The notes under the pieces: model-generated
Seen by the model: only the letters and a program-made list of their open reading frames with translations
What the model was told of the DNA's origin: nothing
Database searches by the model: none
Made by a program: the position numbers and the translations under genes
Assembly: GCA_009925925.1 (NCBI GenBank)
Contig: RFQA01000003.1
Coordinates: 1 to 51,539 of the forward strand
Length of the DNA stretch: 51,539 nt
Origin: Betaproteobacteria bacterium
GTDB taxonomy: Bacteria > Pseudomonadota > Gammaproteobacteria > Burkholderiales > Burkholderiaceae_C
Direction: 5' to 3'
Shown: positions 18,002 to 27,381 of the stretch, one piece after another
Numbering within the stretch: position 1 is the stretch's first letter
How the letters are laid out: every line of letters starts with the position of its first letter

Positions 18002-19498
18002 ATGTCTGCCTCCGCTGAAGAGTCGAGCCTCAGGGTCCTGCGCCTGCTGGAAAAAAATCCACAGCTCACCCAACGTGAGCTGGCGGTGGAGTTGGGTGTG
18101 AGTTTGGGCAAGGCCAACTACTGCGTGCAGGCGCTATTGGGCAAAGGCTTTATCAAGCTGCAGAACTTCCGCGGCAGCAACAACAAGTTGGCCTATGCGT
18201 ATTTGCTGACGCCCGCGGGCATTGCGGCCAAAAGCAGCCTAGCGGTGAGCTATTTACAAATCAAGATGGCTGAATACGAGCGCCTGCGTGCAGAGATAGA
18301 GCAGTTGCGGCATGAGGCGGGAGCTGTGACTCTGCAGGGCGGGGTCAGCACGCTGGAGGTGTCCAGTGATGAGCTCAAGGCTGCAGCCCATGCTACCTAC
18401 ACGGCAGATCCGGCCTTGTTGAAGCAGTGCCAAGTGTTTATCGTGACCGTGCCGACGCCTGTAGATACAGCGAATCGTCCGGATATGACGCCGCTAATCA
18501 AAGCCAGCGAAACCGTTGGCAAGGTAATACCCGGTGGTGCCGTAGTGATCTATGAATCAACGGTTTACCCTGGTGCTACTGAAGAAGTCTGTGTTCCTGT
18601 GCTCGAAAAGTTTTCGGGCCTCAAGTTCAATCAAGATTTTTATTGCGGCTACAGCCCAGAGCGAATCAACCCGGGTGACAAGGTCAACACGCTGACCAAA
18701 ATCAAGAAGATTACCAGCGGCAGCACCCCTGCGGTGGCTGACGCGGTAGATGCGCTCTACCGCAGCATCATCACGGCCGGTACCCACAAGGCCAGCAGTC
18801 TGAAAGTCGCCGAGGCGGCGAAGGTCATTGAGAACACCCAGCGCGACCTGAACATCGCGCTGATCAACGAGCTCTCAGTCATTTTTGCCCGTTTGGGGAT
18901 CGATACGCTGGATGTATTGGAGGCTGCGGGTAGCAAGTGGAACTTTTTGCCATTTCGCCCGGGGCTGGTGGGGGGGCACTGTATTGGCGTTGACCCTTAC
19001 TATTTGACGCACAAGGCCGAGGAGGTGGGCTATCACCCGCAAGTAATTTTGGCGGGGCGTCGCATCAACGACAACATGGCGCGCTATGTGGCGCGAAACA
19101 CCATCAAGCACATGTTGCAAAACGGTATGGATGTACCACGTTGCCGTGTGGGGGTGTTGGGTCTCACCTTTAAGGAGAACTGCCCGGACATTCGCAACAG
19201 CAAGGTAGTTGATATGGTCCGCGAGTTTCAGGGCTGGGGGGTTGAAGTTGTTGTGGCCGACGCATGGGCCGATGCTGAAGAGGTGCAGCATGAATATGGC
19301 CTCAAGCTCGGAGTCGTCGACGCGGCTCACCCCGTGGATGCGCTGGTGGTCGCTGTGGGCCACAACGAATACCGTCATTTGCTGCCCGGCGAATTGCGCA
19401 CCCTGTGCCGAGGCGACAAGCCCGTGCTGGCCGATGTGAAGAGCCTGTATGACCGCCACTCGGTTGCCGCCGCAGGCTTTACTGTGTTCCGACTGTGA
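18002..19498 (+). CDS. Chimeric ORF: EPS-associated MarR regulator fused to N-truncated UDP-sugar 6-dehydrogenase
   Basis: This 498-residue ORF joins two proteins. Residues 1 to about 105 are a winged-helix MarR-type regulator of the EPS-associated family (LRVLRLLEKNPQLTQRELAV, ANYCVQALLGKGFIKLQNF, then a coiled coil ending EIEQLRHEAG). From about residue 112 it is a TviB/WbpA-type UDP-GlcNAc 6-dehydrogenase (STLEVSSDEL, ESTVYPGATEE, SPERINPGDK, GGHCIGVDPYY with catalytic Cys327, GLTFKENCPDIRNSK). The usual first 35-40 dehydrogenase residues, with the GxGxxG NAD-binding strand, are absent. The junction lies near 18315-18348. It probably arose by a deletion removing the regulator's stop and the dehydrogenase's start. 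Oxidation of UDP-GlcNAc is doubtful; DNA binding may persist. Confidence 0.85.
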   Translation: MSASAEESSLRVLRLLEKNPQLTQRELAVELGVSLGKANYCVQALLGKGFIKLQNFRGSNNKLAYAYLLTPAGIAAKSSLAVSYLQIKMAEYERLRAEIEQLRHEAGAVTLQGGVSTLEVSSDELKAAAHATYTADPALLKQCQVFIVTVPTPVDTANRPDMTPLIKASETVGKVIPGGAVVIYESTVYPGATEEVCVPVLEKFSGLKFNQDFYCGYSPERINPGDKVNTLTKIKKITSGSTPAVADAVDALYRSIITAGTHKASSLKVAEAAKVIENTQRDLNIALINELSVIFARLGIDTLDVLEAAGSKWNFLPFRPGLVGGHCIGVDPYYLTHKAEEVGYHPQVILAGRRINDNMARYVARNTIKHMLQNGMDVPRCRVGVLGLTFKENCPDIRNSKVVDMVREFQGWGVEVVVADAWADAEEVQHEYGLKLGVVDAAHPVDALVVAVGHNEYRHLLPGELRTLCRGDKPVLADVKSLYDRHSVAAAGFTVFRL

Positions 19499-19506
19499 GT
19501 TCCGCG

Positions 19507-20565
19507 ATGAGCAATACCCCGATCACCGACCGTAAAGTCCGCTTCGCCTTGGTGGGTTGCGGCCGCATCGCCAAGAACCATTTTGACTCGATTCGCCAGC
19601 ATGCTGCGCATGCAGAGCTGGTGGACGTTTGCGACACCGATTCGGCTGCGCTGGAGCGCGCCGTTCACAGCACGAGCGCTGTAGGCCATGCCAGCCTGAC
19701 CGCCCTGCTGGAGAAAACCACAGCAGATTGTGTAGTACTGACCACGCCTAGCGGTATCCATCCGCAGCAGGCCGTTGAAGTGGCGCGAGCTGGCCGCCAT
19801 GTGCTCAGCGAGAAGCCCATGGCCACCAAATGGGAAGACGGGTTGCGCATGGTGCGTGCCTGCGAGGAAGCGGGTGTGCGCCTCTTTGTCGTCAAGCAGA
19901 ACCGCAAAAATGCTACGCTGCAATTGCTCAAACAAGCCGTGAGCCAGAAGCGCTTTGGTCAGATTTATATGGTCACCCTTAATGTGTTCTGGCAGCGGCC
20001 TCAGGCAGGATATTACGACCAAGCCAAGTGGCGCGGCACTTGGGAGCTCGATGGCGGCGCCTTCATGAACCAGGCCAGCCACTATGTGGACCTGCTGGAG
20101 TGGCTGATCGGCCCCATAGACTCCTTGCATGCATACACCGCTACGTTGGCCCGCGACATTGAAGCGGAAGACAGCGGCGTGCTCAGTGTGCGCTGGCGCA
20201 ACGGTGCTCTTGGCTCGCTGAACTGCACCATGCTGACGTACCCCAAAAATTTGGAGGGGTCCATCACCATCCTGGGAGAAAAAGGCACGGTACGTGTAGG
20301 TGGCGTGGCTGTCAATGAGATCCAAGAGTGGCAGTTTGCCGACAGCCGCCCAGAAGATGAGCAGATCAAGGCTGCCAGCTATGAGACCACTAGCGTCTAC
20401 GGCTTTGGCCATCCTCTCTACTACGACAACGTCATCAAGACCCTGCGCGGCGAAGTCGAGCCTGATGTGGATGGCCGTGAGGGCTTGAAGTCATTGGAAG
20501 TGCTGATCGCTGCCTACCGCTCAGCGCGTGATGGCGTGCGCGTGGGCTTGCCGCTGGAACTGTAA
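19507..20565 (+). CDS. wlbA: UDP-N-acetylglucosaminuronate 3-dehydrogenase, WlbA/WbpB-like (Gfo/Idh/MocA)
   Basis: This 352-residue NAD-dependent oxidoreductase should oxidise C3 of UDP-GlcNAc uronic acid to the 3-keto form, step two towards UDP-2,3-diacetamido uronic acids. The N-terminal Rossmann motif is [13 protein letters not shown], followed by the SEKPMATKW lysine motif. The WlbA-specific substrate loop [20 protein letters not shown] carries the catalytic histidine. The start at 19507 is chosen over an in-frame start at 19495 that overlaps the previous gene; neither has a strong ribosome site. It overlaps the next gene (TAATG). Its supply of UDP-GlcNAcA depends on the truncated dehydrogenase upstream or on another copy. 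Confidence 0.9.
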
Positions 20566-21149
20566 TGAGCACAGGCTATACCGTTCACCCCACGGCCATC
20601 GTTGATGCAGGGGCGCAGATTGGCGAAGGCAGTCGCGTCTGGCACTGGGTGCATATCAGCGCGGGCGCGCGAATAGGTCGCGCCTGTTCTTTTGGACAAA
20701 ACGTCTTTGTTGGCAATGATGTGCACATCGGCAACAACGTCAAAGTACAGAACAATGTGAGCGTTTACGATGCGGTGACCCTGGAAGATGATGTGTTCTG
20801 CGGCCCCAGTATGGTGTTCACTAATGTCTATAACCCGCGCAGCGCCGTGACTCGCAAGGACGAGTACCGTCGTACCTTGATACGGCGCGGCGCGACGCTG
20901 GGCGCCAACTCCACTATTGTCTGCGGCGTCACGGTGGGGCAGTATGCCTTCGTGGGGGCTGGTGCCGTGATCAAACACGATGTACCGGACTACGCCCTGA
21001 TGGTGGGCGTGCCCGCACGTCAGATCGGCTGGATGAGCCAGCACGGCGAGCGGCTGAATTTGCCCCTAACAGGCAACGGCGAGACCGCCTGCGAGCAGAC
21101 GGGCAGGCGCTACACACTAAGCGACAGCCAATGCCGTTTGGTGGATTGA
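20565..21149 (+). CDS. wlbB: UDP-sugar 3-N-acetyltransferase, WbpD/WlbB-like
   Basis: This 194-residue left-handed beta-helix acetyltransferase has hexapeptide repeats across residues 8-150 (for example [40 protein letters not shown]). The conserved loop [11 protein letters not shown] carries residues typical of WbpD/WlbB. It should transfer acetyl from acetyl-CoA to the 3-amino group formed by the aminotransferase next door, giving UDP-GlcNAc3NAcA. Its ATG overlaps the stop of the WlbA-like gene. The C-terminal 35 residues are less conserved. In pathway order it acts after the downstream aminotransferase. Confidence 0.9.
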
Positions 21150-21165
21150 AGACAGGAAAAATTGC

Positions 21166-22251
21166 ATGGACTTCATCGACCTCAAGAGTCAGTACCAGCG
21201 ACTCAAGCCCCAGATCGACGCCGCGATCCAGCGCGTGCTGGACCATGGCCAATACATCCTTGGCCCCGAAGTGGCTGAGCTTGAAGAAAAGCTGGCGGCC
21301 TATACCGGCGCCAAGTACTGCATCAGCGTGGCGAACGGTACTGACGCGTTGCAGATCGCGTTGATGGCATTGGGCGTGAGCCCGGGCGACGAAGTCATCA
21401 CTCCTGGTTTCACCTACATTGCCACTGCCGAAACGGTGGCCCTGCTAGGTGCCAAGCCAGTGTATGTAGACATCGACGAGCGTACCTACAACTTGGATCC
21501 GGCTTTGATCGAGGCGTCCATCACCCCGCGTACCAAGGCCATCATCCCGGTCAGCCTGTATGGCCAGTGCGCAGATTTCGACAGCATCAACGCCATCGCT
21601 GCGCGGCACGGCATTCCTGTTATCGAAGATGCCGCGCAAAGCTTTGGGGCCAGCTACAAGGGGCGTAAAAGCTGCAACCTCAGCACGATCGCCTGCGCCA
21701 GCTTTTTCCCGACCAAACCTCTGGGTTGTTATGGTGATGGCGGTGCAGTCTTTACGAGCGATGATGGCTTGGCCAAGGTGATGCGCCAAATCGCACGCCA
21801 TGGGCAGGAGCGACGCTACCATCATGTGCGGGTCGGCGTGAATAGCCGCCTCGATACTCTGCAGGCTGCAATTCTTCTGCCCAAACTTGCGATCCTGGAC
21901 GAGGAGTTGGTGCTGCGGCAAGTGGTTGCCAAGCGTTACACGGACTTGCTCGATGCGACGGACATCAGAACTACTCCTTATATCGAAGCGCACAACTACA
22001 GCGCGTGGGCACAGTACACAGTACGTGTGCAATCACGCGACTTAGTGCAGAAGAAGCTTCACGAGGCGGGTATTCCCACGGCAGTTCATTATCCAATGCC
22101 CCTGAACCAGCAGCCTGCTGTCAGAGACGACGGCGCGCGTTTGCCGGTGGGGGATCTAGTGGCGACTCAGGTACTCAGCCTTCCGATGCATCCGTGGCTT
22201 TCTTTACAAATGCAGCAACTTGTCAGCGCGACTATGGGGTGCAGCGTCTGA
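21166..22251 (+). CDS. wbpE: UDP-2-acetamido-3-oxo-glucuronate aminotransferase, WbpE/WlbC-like
   Basis: This 361-residue PLP enzyme of the DegT/DnrJ/EryC1 family should aminate the 3-keto sugar from the WlbA-like enzyme using glutamate. The N-terminus FIDLKSQYQRLKPQID and LGPEVAELEEKLA are typical of WbpE. The PLP lysine is Lys184 in FFPTKPLGCYGDGGA, and GASYKGRKS and NSRLDTLQAAIL are further family markers. Together with the two genes before it this makes the core of UDP-2,3-diacetamido-2,3-dideoxy-glucuronate synthesis. No WbpI-type 2-epimerase was found in the window. The composition shifts to lower G+C right after this gene. Confidence 0.92.
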   Translation: MDFIDLKSQYQRLKPQIDAAIQRVLDHGQYILGPEVAELEEKLAAYTGAKYCISVANGTDALQIALMALGVSPGDEVITPGFTYIATAETVALLGAKPVYVDIDERTYNLDPALIEASITPRTKAIIPVSLYGQCADFDSINAIAARHGIPVIEDAAQSFGASYKGRKSCNLSTIACASFFPTKPLGCYGDGGAVFTSDDGLAKVMRQIARHGQERRYHHVRVGVNSRLDTLQAAILLPKLAILDEELVLRQVVAKRYTDLLDATDIRTTPYIEAHNYSAWAQYTVRVQSRDLVQKKLHEAGIPTAVHYPMPLNQQPAVRDDGARLPVGDLVATQVLSLPMHPWLSLQMQQLVSATMGCSV

Positions 22252-23692: not shown

Positions 23693-24681
23693 AAACACTT
23701 CGGTTATTTTTGTATGGAGACGACTGGGTGCAGCACTTAGCGCACGTAATTAATATGCGTCCTGACCTTGGAATAACTGCAGACTATTGCGAATATCCGG
23801 AAATCAGGCCCTGGCGCATTCTTGCGAAGGTGCTAGCTGCGGACGTCCTTATACGTGTCGGGGTTAGGCCGGGCGCACGTGGTAAGCGTTTGTATTTGCT
23901 TGATTGCATGTGGTGGGTTTTTCAGCGGATATTTTGGACCAAGCAGACAATTTACTACTGGATTGGAACAGATGTGCTGGATGCTGTCAGAGAGCGTCAG
24001 CTTGATAACAAAGTCCGTTTTGTTGATTCCATCCAGCGTGGACGACATTTTGCTAACGCGCCTTGGTTGGCAGCAGAATTACGTGGCTTGGGTATTGAAA
24101 GCGATCTTGTCCTTTTCCCCGTGGGCAAGGTATTTCCTCCAGAAGAGTCGTATATCGAATGGCCATCTTTGTTCACGGTATTGACTTACATTCCGGACGG
24201 AAGAGCTGAATTCTATGGTGGCAGTGCATTTGCTATGGCGGCGCGGCTTATGCCCAACGTGCGTTTTTTGGTCGTTGGGGGACAAGGGAAATGGCTGACT
24301 GACCCGCCGCCAAATCTTAAATTCCTCGGTTATGTTGAGGACATGAGACCAATTCTGAATGAAGCGCATGTGGTGGTACGACAGGTAGAACACGATGCAA
24401 TCGGGGGCACAGTTCGAGAGGGTTTATTCTTTGCTCGATATGTTGTCTACTCGTACCCTCTCCCACATACTTCGCTCTCTAGGTGGGGTGATGCTGTTAG
24501 TCTTCACGCCACTCTTGTTGGCTGGCATGAACTGTTTGAGTCGGGCGGATTGAGTCCGAACTGGGAAGGCCGCCGGTATGCCATTGCCGCTTGGGATCCA
24601 GAGCGGTTGCTTGAGGGATTCGCTGAAGCATTGATGCGAGTGAGCGCGCCGCAAGCGGAACGAAGGGAGGGGCAATCGTGA
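23689..24681 (+). CDS. Glycosyltransferase, GT4-like
   Basis: This 330-residue protein has a two-domain Rossmann layout suggestive of GT-B glycosyltransferases. The N-terminal part starts KTLRLFLYGDDWVQHL. The C-terminal donor site has PNVRFLVVGGQG, NLKFLGYVEDMRPILNEAHVVVRQ and GGTVREGLFFARYVVYSYP, the last holding the usual glutamate. The start at 23689 overlaps the flippase stop by four bases; a longer in-frame extension would run inside the flippase gene and is not credible. It shares the A+T-rich composition of the flippase. Donor and acceptor sugars are unknown. Its stop overlaps the HisH-like gene. Confidence 0.8.
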   Translation: MKTLRLFLYGDDWVQHLAHVINMRPDLGITADYCEYPEIRPWRILAKVLAADVLIRVGVRPGARGKRLYLLDCMWWVFQRIFWTKQTIYYWIGTDVLDAVRERQLDNKVRFVDSIQRGRHFANAPWLAAELRGLGIESDLVLFPVGKVFPPEESYIEWPSLFTVLTYIPDGRAEFYGGSAFAMAARLMPNVRFLVVGGQGKWLTDPPPNLKFLGYVEDMRPILNEAHVVVRQVEHDAIGGTVREGLFFARYVVYSYPLPHTSLSRWGDAVSLHATLVGWHELFESGGLSPNWEGRRYAIAAWDPERLLEGFAEALMRVSAPQAERREGQS

Positions 24682-25283
24682 TTGCTTTAGTGGATTATGG
24701 GGTAGGGAATTTGAGTTCCGTCGCCAATATGCTGCGCAAAGCTGGCGCAGACGTAGTCGTATCACGAGAGCCTAAAGTAATTTTGGCTGCGGACAAGTTG
24801 CTACTGCCCGGAGTGGGGCATTTCGATCACGGCATGAAGATGATCAACGCTTCCGGTCTGCGCGAAGCTCTGGACCACTTCGCGCTAGAGTTGCGGCGCC
24901 CCGTGCTAGGCATCTGCCTGGGCGCGCAAATTTTGGGCCACGGCAGCGAAGAAGGTGATGCGCCCGGACTGGGTTGGGTTGACATGGCCTGTCGTAAATT
25001 ACCGGCCATGCCAGGGATCCGGGTGCCACACATGGGCTGGAATCAGATCACGCGGAAGAAACACTCCCTACTGCTCGACGGTATGCGCGAAGACGCCCGT
25101 TACTATTTCGTACATTCGTATCACATGGAGTGCGCCGATGCCGAGGACGTGCTGGCCACGGCGGTTCACGGCATCGAATTCACTTGTGCGGTGCAGCGGG
25201 GCAACATCATGGGCACGCAGTTTCATCCCGAAAAATCGCTGCGCCATGGCTTGGCGCTGATGCAATCGTTTGTGGGGCTTTAG
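24678..25283 (+). CDS. hisH: HisH-like glutamine amidotransferase of the glycan locus
   Basis: This 201-residue class I glutaminase has Cys80 in GICLGAQILG and the His183/Glu185 pair in QFHPEKS, so the catalytic triad is complete. It should hydrolyse glutamine and pass ammonia to its HisF-like partner. The position between a glycosyltransferase and a HisF/WbpG pair matches the hisH2-hisF2-wbpG set of Pseudomonas B-band O-antigen loci, where ammonia is used to build an acetamidino sugar. It is therefore unlikely to be the histidine pathway gene, and no other his gene is nearby. It overlaps the gene before by four bases and precedes hisF by five. Confidence 0.92.
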   Translation: MIALVDYGVGNLSSVANMLRKAGADVVVSREPKVILAADKLLLPGVGHFDHGMKMINASGLREALDHFALELRRPVLGICLGAQILGHGSEEGDAPGLGWVDMACRKLPAMPGIRVPHMGWNQITRKKHSLLLDGMREDARYYFVHSYHMECADAEDVLATAVHGIEFTCAVQRGNIMGTQFHPEKSLRHGLALMQSFVGL

Positions 25284-25288
25284 GCATC

Positions 25289-26050
25289 ATGAACAAGACG
25301 CGTGTCATTCCCGTCCTGCTGCTTCGGGGCAAGGGCTTGGTCAAAACGGTGAAATTCAAGGAACCCAAATATATCGGGGACCCCATCAACTCGGTCCGCA
25401 TCTTCAACGAGAAGGAAGTCGACGAACTAGTGTTCCTTGACATCACCGCAACGCCAGAAGGCCGGGGGCCGGATTTCGAGTTGCTGGCCGATATCGCGGG
25501 TGAGGCCTTTATGCCTATGGCTTATGGCGGCGGCATCACTTCGCTGGAACAAGTTAAGCGTATTTTCAGCCTAGGTTTTGAAAAAGTAGTTATCGATTCC
25601 GCGGCTTACGACGTACCCCAGCTGATCCGCGACGCCGTAGCAATCTATGGCTCCCAGAGCATCGTCGGTTGTGTGGATGTGCGGCGCACTCTCCTGGGGC
25701 GCTACGAACTCAGCTCTCATGCGGGCAAGACCAAGCGGACTATTGGGTTGACTGCGCATGTGCGGGAGCTGGAGCGACTAGGCGTTGGGGAAATTATTGT
25801 TAACGCAGTAGATCGGGACGGCACGCAATCGGGTTATGACCTTAAGCTGATCCGAGAGGTGTCGTCGGCGGTTAGCATTCCAATAGTGGCCTGTGGTGGC
25901 GCGTCAAGTCTAGACGACTTTGTCGCCGCGGTACATGAGGGGGGGGCTTCCGCGGTGGCGGCTGGTAGTTTTTTTGTGTTCGTCGGGCCGCACAGGGCCG
26001 TACTTATCAACTATCCCGCGCGCGTGGATCTGACCAAGCGGTTACCCTGA
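25289..26050 (+). CDS. hisF: HisF-like cyclase paralogue of the glycan locus
   Basis: This is a 253-residue (beta/alpha)8-barrel protein. The N-terminus reads RVIPVLLLRGKGLVKTVKF where biosynthetic HisF has IIPCLDV: the catalytic first-strand aspartate is replaced by leucine. The second aspartate region survives as GCVDVRR, and VNAVDRDGTQSGYD and VACGGASSLDDF are retained. The IGDPINSVRIFNEKEVDEL segment is typical of LPS-locus HisF2 proteins. It probably serves as the ammonia channel between HisH and the WbpG-like enzyme rather than making imidazole glycerol phosphate. A longer frame upstream overlaps hisH and is rejected. Confidence 0.9.
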   Translation: MNKTRVIPVLLLRGKGLVKTVKFKEPKYIGDPINSVRIFNEKEVDELVFLDITATPEGRGPDFELLADIAGEAFMPMAYGGGITSLEQVKRIFSLGFEKVVIDSAAYDVPQLIRDAVAIYGSQSIVGCVDVRRTLLGRYELSSHAGKTKRTIGLTAHVRELERLGVGEIIVNAVDRDGTQSGYDLKLIREVSSAVSIPIVACGGASSLDDFVAAVHEGGASAVAAGSFFVFVGPHRAVLINYPARVDLTKRLP

Positions 26051-26226
26051 ATTCGCCCTTGAGAGGCGTTTCGCATCGCAGATAATCTTCGGACCGCGGA
26101 CAGAGACCGTCCTGCCTCTCTTTTTTCAACACTCAGCATATGCAAAAACCAGACTACAGTCGCCCAGTAGATGCGATTCGTGCGCCAGTGGACGGACGTC
26201 CGATTCAGAAGGCCGCGTTTGTGCTC

Positions 26227-27381
26227 ATGGGGCGCGAGTATCAGATCTGTACGCGCTGCGTCATGGATACGACAGATCCAGAGATCCAATTTGACGAACA
26301 GGGGGTTTGCAACCACTGTCGCAACTTCGACATTAACGTCAAGCCGACTTGGCCTTCTTTGGGCGGCGATGCAGTCAAGCTGGAGGCGATGATTCAAGCA
26401 GTGAAGGCCTATGGCAAAGGTAAGCGTTACGACTGCATAATTGGCCTATCCGGTGGCATAGACAGTTCCTACATTGCGGTTAAGGTCGCAGAGTGGGGAC
26501 TGCGACCGCTGGTGGTGCATGTCGATGCCGGCTGGAATTCCGAGCTGGCGGTAATGAATATTGAGCAAATTTGCCGTCGTCTAGGATTCGATCTAGTCAC
26601 ACACGTAGTGGACTGGGAGGAGATGAGGGACATGCAATTGGCCTTTCTTCGCTCCAACCTCGCGAATCAAGACGTGCCCCAAGATCACGCCTTCTTTGCC
26701 GCCCTTTACGGCTATGCAGAGAAGGCCGGGATCAAGTATGTGATCAATGGGAGCAATTTCGCAACAGAGAGTATTCTGCCGGCCGCTTGGGGTTACGATG
26801 CCATGGATGCGACTCATGTGAAGGCCATCCACACCCGTTTCGGCTCTCGACCCCGTGGCGATTTTCCCATAGTCAGCTTCTTCAGTCTGTATGTGAAGTA
26901 CCCATTCCTCCTGAAAATGGAAGTGCTGCGGCCATTAAACCTCCTGCCTTACAACAAGGAAGAGGCGATCAAAATTCTGGAGAAGGACTTCGGGTGGCGT
27001 TATTACGGCGGCAAGCATTACGAGTCGCGCTGGACCCGCTTCTTTCAAGCCTACTACTTGCCACACAAGTTTGGGTACGATAAGCGTAAGGCGCACCTGT
27101 CTAGCCTCATTGTGTCCGGCCAGATGAGCCGCGGAGATGCGCTCGAGGCTCTGAAGACGCCGCTCTACGATCCGAAGCTGCTGGCGGAGGACAAGATATT
27201 CATCGCTAAAAAGCTCGGCATGTCGCCGGACGAGTTTGATGCCTTGGTCGATCAACCAGTGCATCATTTCAGCGAGTTCCCCAACCACCAGCGTAAGCGA
27301 AACCTGGCTGTGAGGGTTTATAGGACGGCTAAGTCGGTGCTTGCGCCCGTTTTGCGGATGCTGGACAAATTGCGGGCCTGA
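26227..27381 (+). CDS. wbpG: N-acetyl sugar amidotransferase, WbpG-like
   Basis: This 384-residue PP-loop ATPase has an N-terminal cysteine cluster (CTRCVMD and VCNHC, about residues 7-30) and the PP-loop SGGIDSS at residues 75-81. YVINGSNFATES and the C-terminal KFGYDKRKAHLSSLI are family-typical. It should adenylate an N-acetyl group of a diacetamido uronic acid and replace oxygen with ammonia from HisH/HisF, giving an acetamidino group as in Pseudomonas O5. The start is set at 26227 by family length; GTG 26221 with AGAAGG eight bases upstream is an equally good start, and ATG 26140 is possible but adds an unconserved tail. Confidence 0.9.
   Translation: MGREYQICTRCVMDTTDPEIQFDEQGVCNHCRNFDINVKPTWPSLGGDAVKLEAMIQAVKAYGKGKRYDCIIGLSGGIDSSYIAVKVAEWGLRPLVVHVDAGWNSELAVMNIEQICRRLGFDLVTHVVDWEEMRDMQLAFLRSNLANQDVPQDHAFFAALYGYAEKAGIKYVINGSNFATESILPAAWGYDAMDATHVKAIHTRFGSRPRGDFPIVSFFSLYVKYPFLLKMEVLRPLNLLPYNKEEAIKILEKDFGWRYYGGKHYESRWTRFFQAYYLPHKFGYDKRKAHLSSLIVSGQMSRGDALEALKTPLYDPKLLAEDKIFIAKKLGMSPDEFDALVDQPVHHFSEFPNHQRKRNLAVRVYRTAKSVLAPVLRMLDKLRA

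Follow-up and report, generated by a model that had tools for sequence, protein, structure and literature searches.

In a window of 51,539 nucleotides, which is the whole of one contig (C113) of a 3.86-Mb draft genome, a single open reading frame at 18002-19498 begins as a MarR_EPS winged-helix regulator and runs on into a UDP-GlcNAc 6-dehydrogenase of the WbpA/TviB type that has no head. The reading we favour, as the probable though far from certain one, is that a very recent deletion of 164 bp at the border of two neighboring genes fused the regulator to the wbpA/tviB-type gene and disabled step one of the UDP-GlcNAc3NAcA pathway. Should the junction be real, a single recent event would have cost the strain a diacetamido-uronic acid of its surface polysaccharide and left it with a regulator tagged with a dead enzyme. 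As an event, such a fusing deletion is ordinary; losses and swaps are common in surface-sugar loci.

The fused reading frame

The frame extends from an ATG at 18002 to a TGA at 19496-19498, encodes 498 amino acids and is confirmed as a true feature of the sequence. Its parts are as follows.

18002..18346, forward strand: MarR_EPS winged-helix regulator with its coiled coil, residues 1-115, without the last 7 residues of its relatives (TIGR04176, 143 bits)
18344..18349, forward strand: junction of the putative 164-bp deletion, the break being placed within a few bases by comparison of both flanks with genomes G091 and G059
18347..19498, forward strand: headless UDP-GlcNAc 6-dehydrogenase, WbpA/TviB type, starting at residue 49 of its 431-residue relatives (profile searches and alignment)

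An earlier note on this DNA had described a regulator reading, with no stop, into a TviB/WbpA dehydrogenase, and profile searches bear this out. The MarR_EPS profile TIGR04176 matches residues 6-106 with 143.3 bits, above its cut-off of 88, and profile positions 3-103 of 105 are covered. Residues 111-482 match the TviB profile NF011729 at positions 44-415 of 425 with 502 bits, below the cut-off of 592, and residues 116-467 match the NDP-sugar dehydrogenase profile TIGR03026 with 328 bits, above the cut-off of 189.8. The Pfam domains follow the same order: HTH_24, then UDPG_MGDP_dh_N from profile position 72 of 187 only, then the central and C-terminal (UDP-binding) dehydrogenase domains, both matched nearly end to end. 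A family search alone could therefore mislabel the fusion, either as a working dehydrogenase, for it passes TIGR03026, or as a plain regulator, for it passes TIGR04176.

Two details of the earlier description need adjusting. The regulator was called complete, and its winged helix and coiled coil are indeed present, but the last 7 of 122 residues are missing. The enzyme was said to lack 35-40 residues including the GxGxxG strand; the strand is absent, but the loss amounts to 48 residues relative to the nearest relatives (41 when counted from the first strand). The regulator part is 92% identical to the separate 122-residue MarR protein of G091 and 90% identical to that of G059, and the enzyme part is 93% identical to the G091 enzyme over the kept part. 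Set against WbpA/TviB UDP-GlcNAc 6-dehydrogenases in general (NF011729; PF03721-PF00984-PF03720), the fusion shares the central domain, the UDP-binding domain, the catalytic cysteine and the residues that are invariant after the break, whereas the first 48 residues, which form the NAD+-binding half-fold, are absent.

The missing border and the rest of the assembly

In the two closest genomes found, G091 (L004) and G059 (L005), the MarR protein of 122 residues and the dehydrogenase of 431 residues are encoded by separate genes with a 4-base overlap, and, measured from one shared anchor to the other, the window falls short of each of them by 164 bp. The shortening costs the regulator its last 7 residues and the enzyme residues 1-48. 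A border deletion, put forward in the earlier note, is still the simplest origin, and the separate neighboring genes that the note had described for related loci are borne out: 13 distinct MarR-dehydrogenase neighbor pairs (21 rows) range from an overlap of 4 bases between the two genes to a gap of 257 bases, and in none of the 13 is a frame shared. One of these pairs, in G044 (L063 1350-1690, the same record as L137), has a frameshifted MarR_EPS gene with an intact dehydrogenase behind it, so loss of one gene does not require loss of the other.

The GxGxxG motif stands at the head of 116 of 118 dehydrogenase rows from other genomes (best frame per fetched locus, the rows being partly redundant), the exceptions being L142, whose start coincides with the end of a contig, and the damaged extra copy L067 of G010; it is likewise present in 79 of 80 named loci (the best 80 of 583 confirmed), with L142 again the exception. 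L067 (G010 C4:41872-43003) is a broken second TviB-like gene lying ~20 kb from L010 on the same contig, which has GxGxxG.

According to the favoured reading, ~164 bp would have been lost at the border of the overlapping MarR_EPS and dehydrogenase genes, with the frame staying open by a one-in-three chance. Simulated border deletions gave an open fused frame in 3,646 of 10,974 cases in each relative (33%), so the in-frame join speaks for neither a deletion nor an artefact. By eye, no long exact repeat was seen at the break when the window was compared with its relatives. An imperfect TGCAGG(N)CGG occurs in both the MarR tail and the enzyme head, 161 bases apart in G091 by hand count; a clean deletion between these direct repeats was rejected because the spacing of 161 does not equal the deletion of 164. 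A short-homology deletion would fit, its precise endpoints being readable only from the ancestral sequence.

The main rival takes the junction for an artefact or for a minority variant, arising from a chimeric library molecule or from a path through a mixed-strain assembly, in an organism that has two normal genes. We regard this as a real possibility, though a doubtful one. The assembly is a 465-contig draft (tool estimates: completeness 94.62%, contamination 4.32%), which leaves room for such an error. Since an assembler that joined the two genes wrongly via a shared k-mer would require a longer repeat than any seen at the break, simple k-mer collapse is unexpected, which would argue mildly against plain assembler error. 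Against an artefact also stands the missing DNA itself: a 162-bp piece of the missing stretch is present in G059, G091, G044 and G099 (E 5e-80 to 1.5e-20), and the same piece was not found in the fusion's own genome (best E 1.0).

Nor did the assembly yield a second wbpA/tviB-like gene in searches with PF00984 and PF03721. PF00984 matches two proteins, namely the fusion and a 458-residue frame on contig C2 that is 27% identical to an intact relative, and PF03721 adds two weak matches below its cut-off. MarR_EPS has one match only in this genome, and no separate N-terminal piece of the enzyme was found in the assembly. It is likely, though not proven, that an intact copy is absent elsewhere in the genome, of which the assembly may lack ~5%. 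As neither a second copy nor the missing DNA was located elsewhere, step one of the pathway would be lost, provided that the junction is real; the earlier note had foreseen this loss unless another copy existed.

The truncated dehydrogenase

To place the loss on the fold, we used a structure model of the enzyme of a close relative (L079; 29 aligned sequences, mean pLDDT 87), in which beta1 spans residues 2-4, alphaA 10-18, beta2 23-26 and alphaB 30-37. The window enzyme starts at residue 42 in L079 numbering, so the whole of beta1-alphaA-beta2-alphaB is gone together with GxGxxG. Before the break, 18 residues from G5 to D41 that are invariant in the 29 enzymes are lost by descent, including GxGxxG and D27 just after beta2; in the alignment the LQGG of the MarR tail mimics two of the 18 by chance, L36 and G39 (the Leu and Gly of ELxxG). 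The kept part is a different matter, as the earlier note had said of the remaining motifs: the catalytic cysteine (Cys327 in GGHC, codon 18980-18982) is intact, and so are all 124 of the 124 columns that are invariant in 29 relatives.

In this dehydrogenase family the GxGxxG glycines are described as coordinating NAD+ and the cysteine as the nucleophile (PMC4794789), and WbpA is described as carrying out the NAD+-dependent first step of UDP-ManNAc3NAcA synthesis (PMC10622841). A Rossmann domain without beta1-alphaA-beta2-alphaB would not be expected to hold NAD+ normally, so UDP-GlcNAc should not be oxidised; an enzyme without an NAD+ site is, from its sequence, the product to be expected. We envision a regulator whose DNA-binding and coiled-coil parts are retained and which probably still works, with a dead dehydrogenase tail attached. 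As a second copy was not located in the assembly, UDP-GlcNAcA, UDP-GlcNAc3NAcA and probably its acetamidino derivative would not be made, and the sugar would be lost.

The joined protein was also modelled, as the earlier note had proposed, and a model was obtained, but it is poor and adds little (mean pLDDT 69, and <50 over residues 47-121). It was built from enzyme rows starting after the break; the MarR half had no aligned relatives and is therefore uninformative. Two alignments with MarR rows were set aside because these rows had been placed onto the enzyme, and a third was not used for structure because enzyme heads had been placed onto the MarR coiled coil.

That the truncated enzyme is still active, for example with the MarR coiled coil or a separate protein standing in for its N-terminal half, would accord with the lack of any relaxed constraint (see below). 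We give it almost no credence, as the NAD+-binding strand-helix-strand, GxGxxG and the aspartate after beta2 are all gone and no separate N-terminal piece turned up in the assembly; the low pLDDT across the join points the same way, weakly, given that the regulator half of that model had no aligned relatives.

Selection on the enzyme part was estimated against both close relatives. The dN/dS ratio is 0.028 against G091 (dS 1.27) and 0.034 against G059 (dS 1.76), compared with 0.047 between the G091 and G059 enzymes (dS 1.34), with dS near saturation. With L079 as outgroup, 6 lineage-specific amino-acid changes fall to the window, 5 to G091 and 13 to G059. The downstream wbpB-, wbpD- and wbpE-like genes are likewise constrained, with dN/dS of 0.04-0.06 where computable, 3 of the 9 pairs being saturated. 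The enzyme part has thus spent no measurable time without selection, which leaves a very recent deletion, an intact population or a fully constrained fusion; the data do not choose among these three. An undecayed remainder, with its intact invariant columns, its unremarkable count of changes and its low dN/dS, is also what the artefact would predict.

Another rival is a working protein in which the MarR_EPS domain is joined to a UDP-sugar-binding domain without catalytic activity, which would detect UDP-GlcNAc or a product and set cluster expression. The central, UDP-binding and regulator domains are intact and in frame, as such a protein would require. The conservation, however, is indistinguishable from that inherited from an enzyme, an open frame is expected by chance once in three, and the downstream pathway genes would be without their first step. 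A regulator with a gained UDP-sugar-sensing domain was the alternative offered in the earlier note; we found no positive evidence for it, and consider it possible but unsupported and very unlikely. Were the fusion fixed in a population and UDP-sugar-sensing, a one-component regulator would have been caught at birth. That the fused gene is both fixed and functional, which would amount to the one-step birth of such a regulator with an NAD-free UDP-sugar-binding domain taken over, through the border deletion, from the first enzyme of the same pathway, and a cluster controlled by its substrate, has in our estimate only a slender chance.

Other genomes

A DNA search of the 103 genomes of the genus, the fusion's own included, gave matches in 27, and bases 1-1497 of the frame were matched in one piece only in its own genome. 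No other genome among these 103 shares the fused gene, nor does any of the 80 named loci, which are the best of 583 confirmed. This solitary occurrence argues against a sensing protein and is a further point in favor of an artefact. The 25-mer across the junction had, as expected, no match in viral contigs, and no MarR/UDP-GlcNAc-dehydrogenase fusion was evident in a literature search of titles and the beginnings of abstracts, which is no proof of absence.

More distant genomes were searched with TIGR04176 in three samples, drawn from the family (399 genomes), the order (300) and the class (369) and overlapping in a few genomes; 72, 45 and 43 genomes, respectively, had a match above the cut-off. 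Below the cut-off, matches to TIGR04176 are unspecific, as 7 of 14 control genomes match at E 0.001 and none of them above the cut-off. Outside the fusion's own genome, 16 of the listed matches above the cut-off have an open frame of at least 200 amino acids (10 + 4 + 2), and we inspected all of these. All 16 proteins end within 25 residues past the domain, whereas the fusion continues for 393 residues; their extra length precedes the regulator in every case, and they were rejected as fusions. G044 and G016 were likewise rejected as further fusions, as their ORF lists show a stop between the genes. Among those inspected, no above-cut-off MarR_EPS protein besides the fusion runs on into an enzyme. 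In its placement the regulator of the fusion resembles its MarR_EPS relatives, standing just upstream of a UDP-sugar dehydrogenase as theirs do; in running on past the domain, it differs from the 16 longest-framed of them inspected.

One below-cut-off match is of a related kind. In G876 (L190 3059-5158, on C1), a MarR_EPS-like winged helix shares one open frame of 715 codons with a bifunctional sulfate adenylyltransferase/APS kinase; the MarR_EPS-like domain scores 78 bits against the TIGR04176 cut-off of 88. Here too a MarR_EPS-like domain leads in frame into a metabolic enzyme (Sat/CysC), but the regulator part is below the family cut-off and the enzyme is full length. This distant case may be counted in favor of a sensing protein, although the G876 protein keeps its whole enzyme. 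Four other below-cut-off MarR_EPS-like proteins (L191, L193, L179 and L180) have ~100-125 extra C-terminal residues, which may also be counted on the side of sensing; in the two of these MarR_EPS-like proteins that were scanned, the extension had no above-cut-off Pfam match. Further below-cut-off TIGR04176 matches of similar frame length are many in the class sample, and a minority of those with frames of 200-300 residues was fetched.

A natural loss of a Wbp-pathway step is described in Porphyromonas gingivalis HG66, where a nonsense mutation in wbpB is accompanied by loss of a surface polysaccharide (PMC4031482). As would be the case here, one lesion is enough to knock out an enzyme in a sugar pathway of this kind; the wbpB lesion is a point mutation shown by experiment, whereas the putative wbpA border deletion is seen in sequence only.

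The downstream cluster

Directly after the headless dehydrogenase, the window carries the B-, D- and E-like members of a Wbp set, followed by genes of the acetamidino-modification type.

19495..20565, forward strand: WbpB-like Gfo/Idh-type oxidoreductase (step 2), open frame (NF040723 UDP-GlcNAc 3-dehydrogenase, E 8e-24, below cut-off)
20565..21149, forward strand: WbpD-like hexapeptide acetyltransferase, open frame (TIGR03570, E 2e-24, below cut-off)
21166..22251, forward strand: WbpE-like DegT/DnrJ-type aminotransferase, open frame (TIGR03588 and others, below cut-off)
24678-25283, forward strand: HisH2-like amidotransferase, named by eye
inside ORF 25130-26050, forward strand: HisF2/WbuZ acetamidino-modification gene (NF038364, 351 bits, cut-off 310)
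26140..27381, forward strand: WbuX-type N-acetyl sugar amidotransferase (TIGR03573, 295 bits, cut-off 203)

The names WbpB, WbpD and WbpE rest on family type and gene order, since the family matches are all below the NCBIfam cut-offs. Identities to G091 and G059 are 92% and 91% for the WbpB-like gene, 86-87% for the WbpD-like gene, and 86% and 79% for the WbpE-like gene. The 2-epimerase WbpI, which is needed for the manno form, was not seen among the 20 window ORFs scanned, and a flippase-like gene, whose family match is below cut-off, also lies downstream. The HisH2-like, HisF2/WbuZ and WbuX genes presumably point to an acetamidino-modified diamino-uronic acid, as in some O-antigens, and the WbuX-type amidotransferase likely acts on the pathway product.

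No 300-base piece of the window between 22.0 and 30.1 kb matches either of the regions fetched from G059 and G091. From 10 to 17.8 kb the window is ~93-99% identical to G059, and between 18 and 22 kb its identity is ~80-91% with G091 and ~70-86% with G059. The mosaic over positions 10001-30100 is as would be expected of an exchanged polysaccharide cassette, and the fusion sits at the start of this exchanged surface-sugar cassette.
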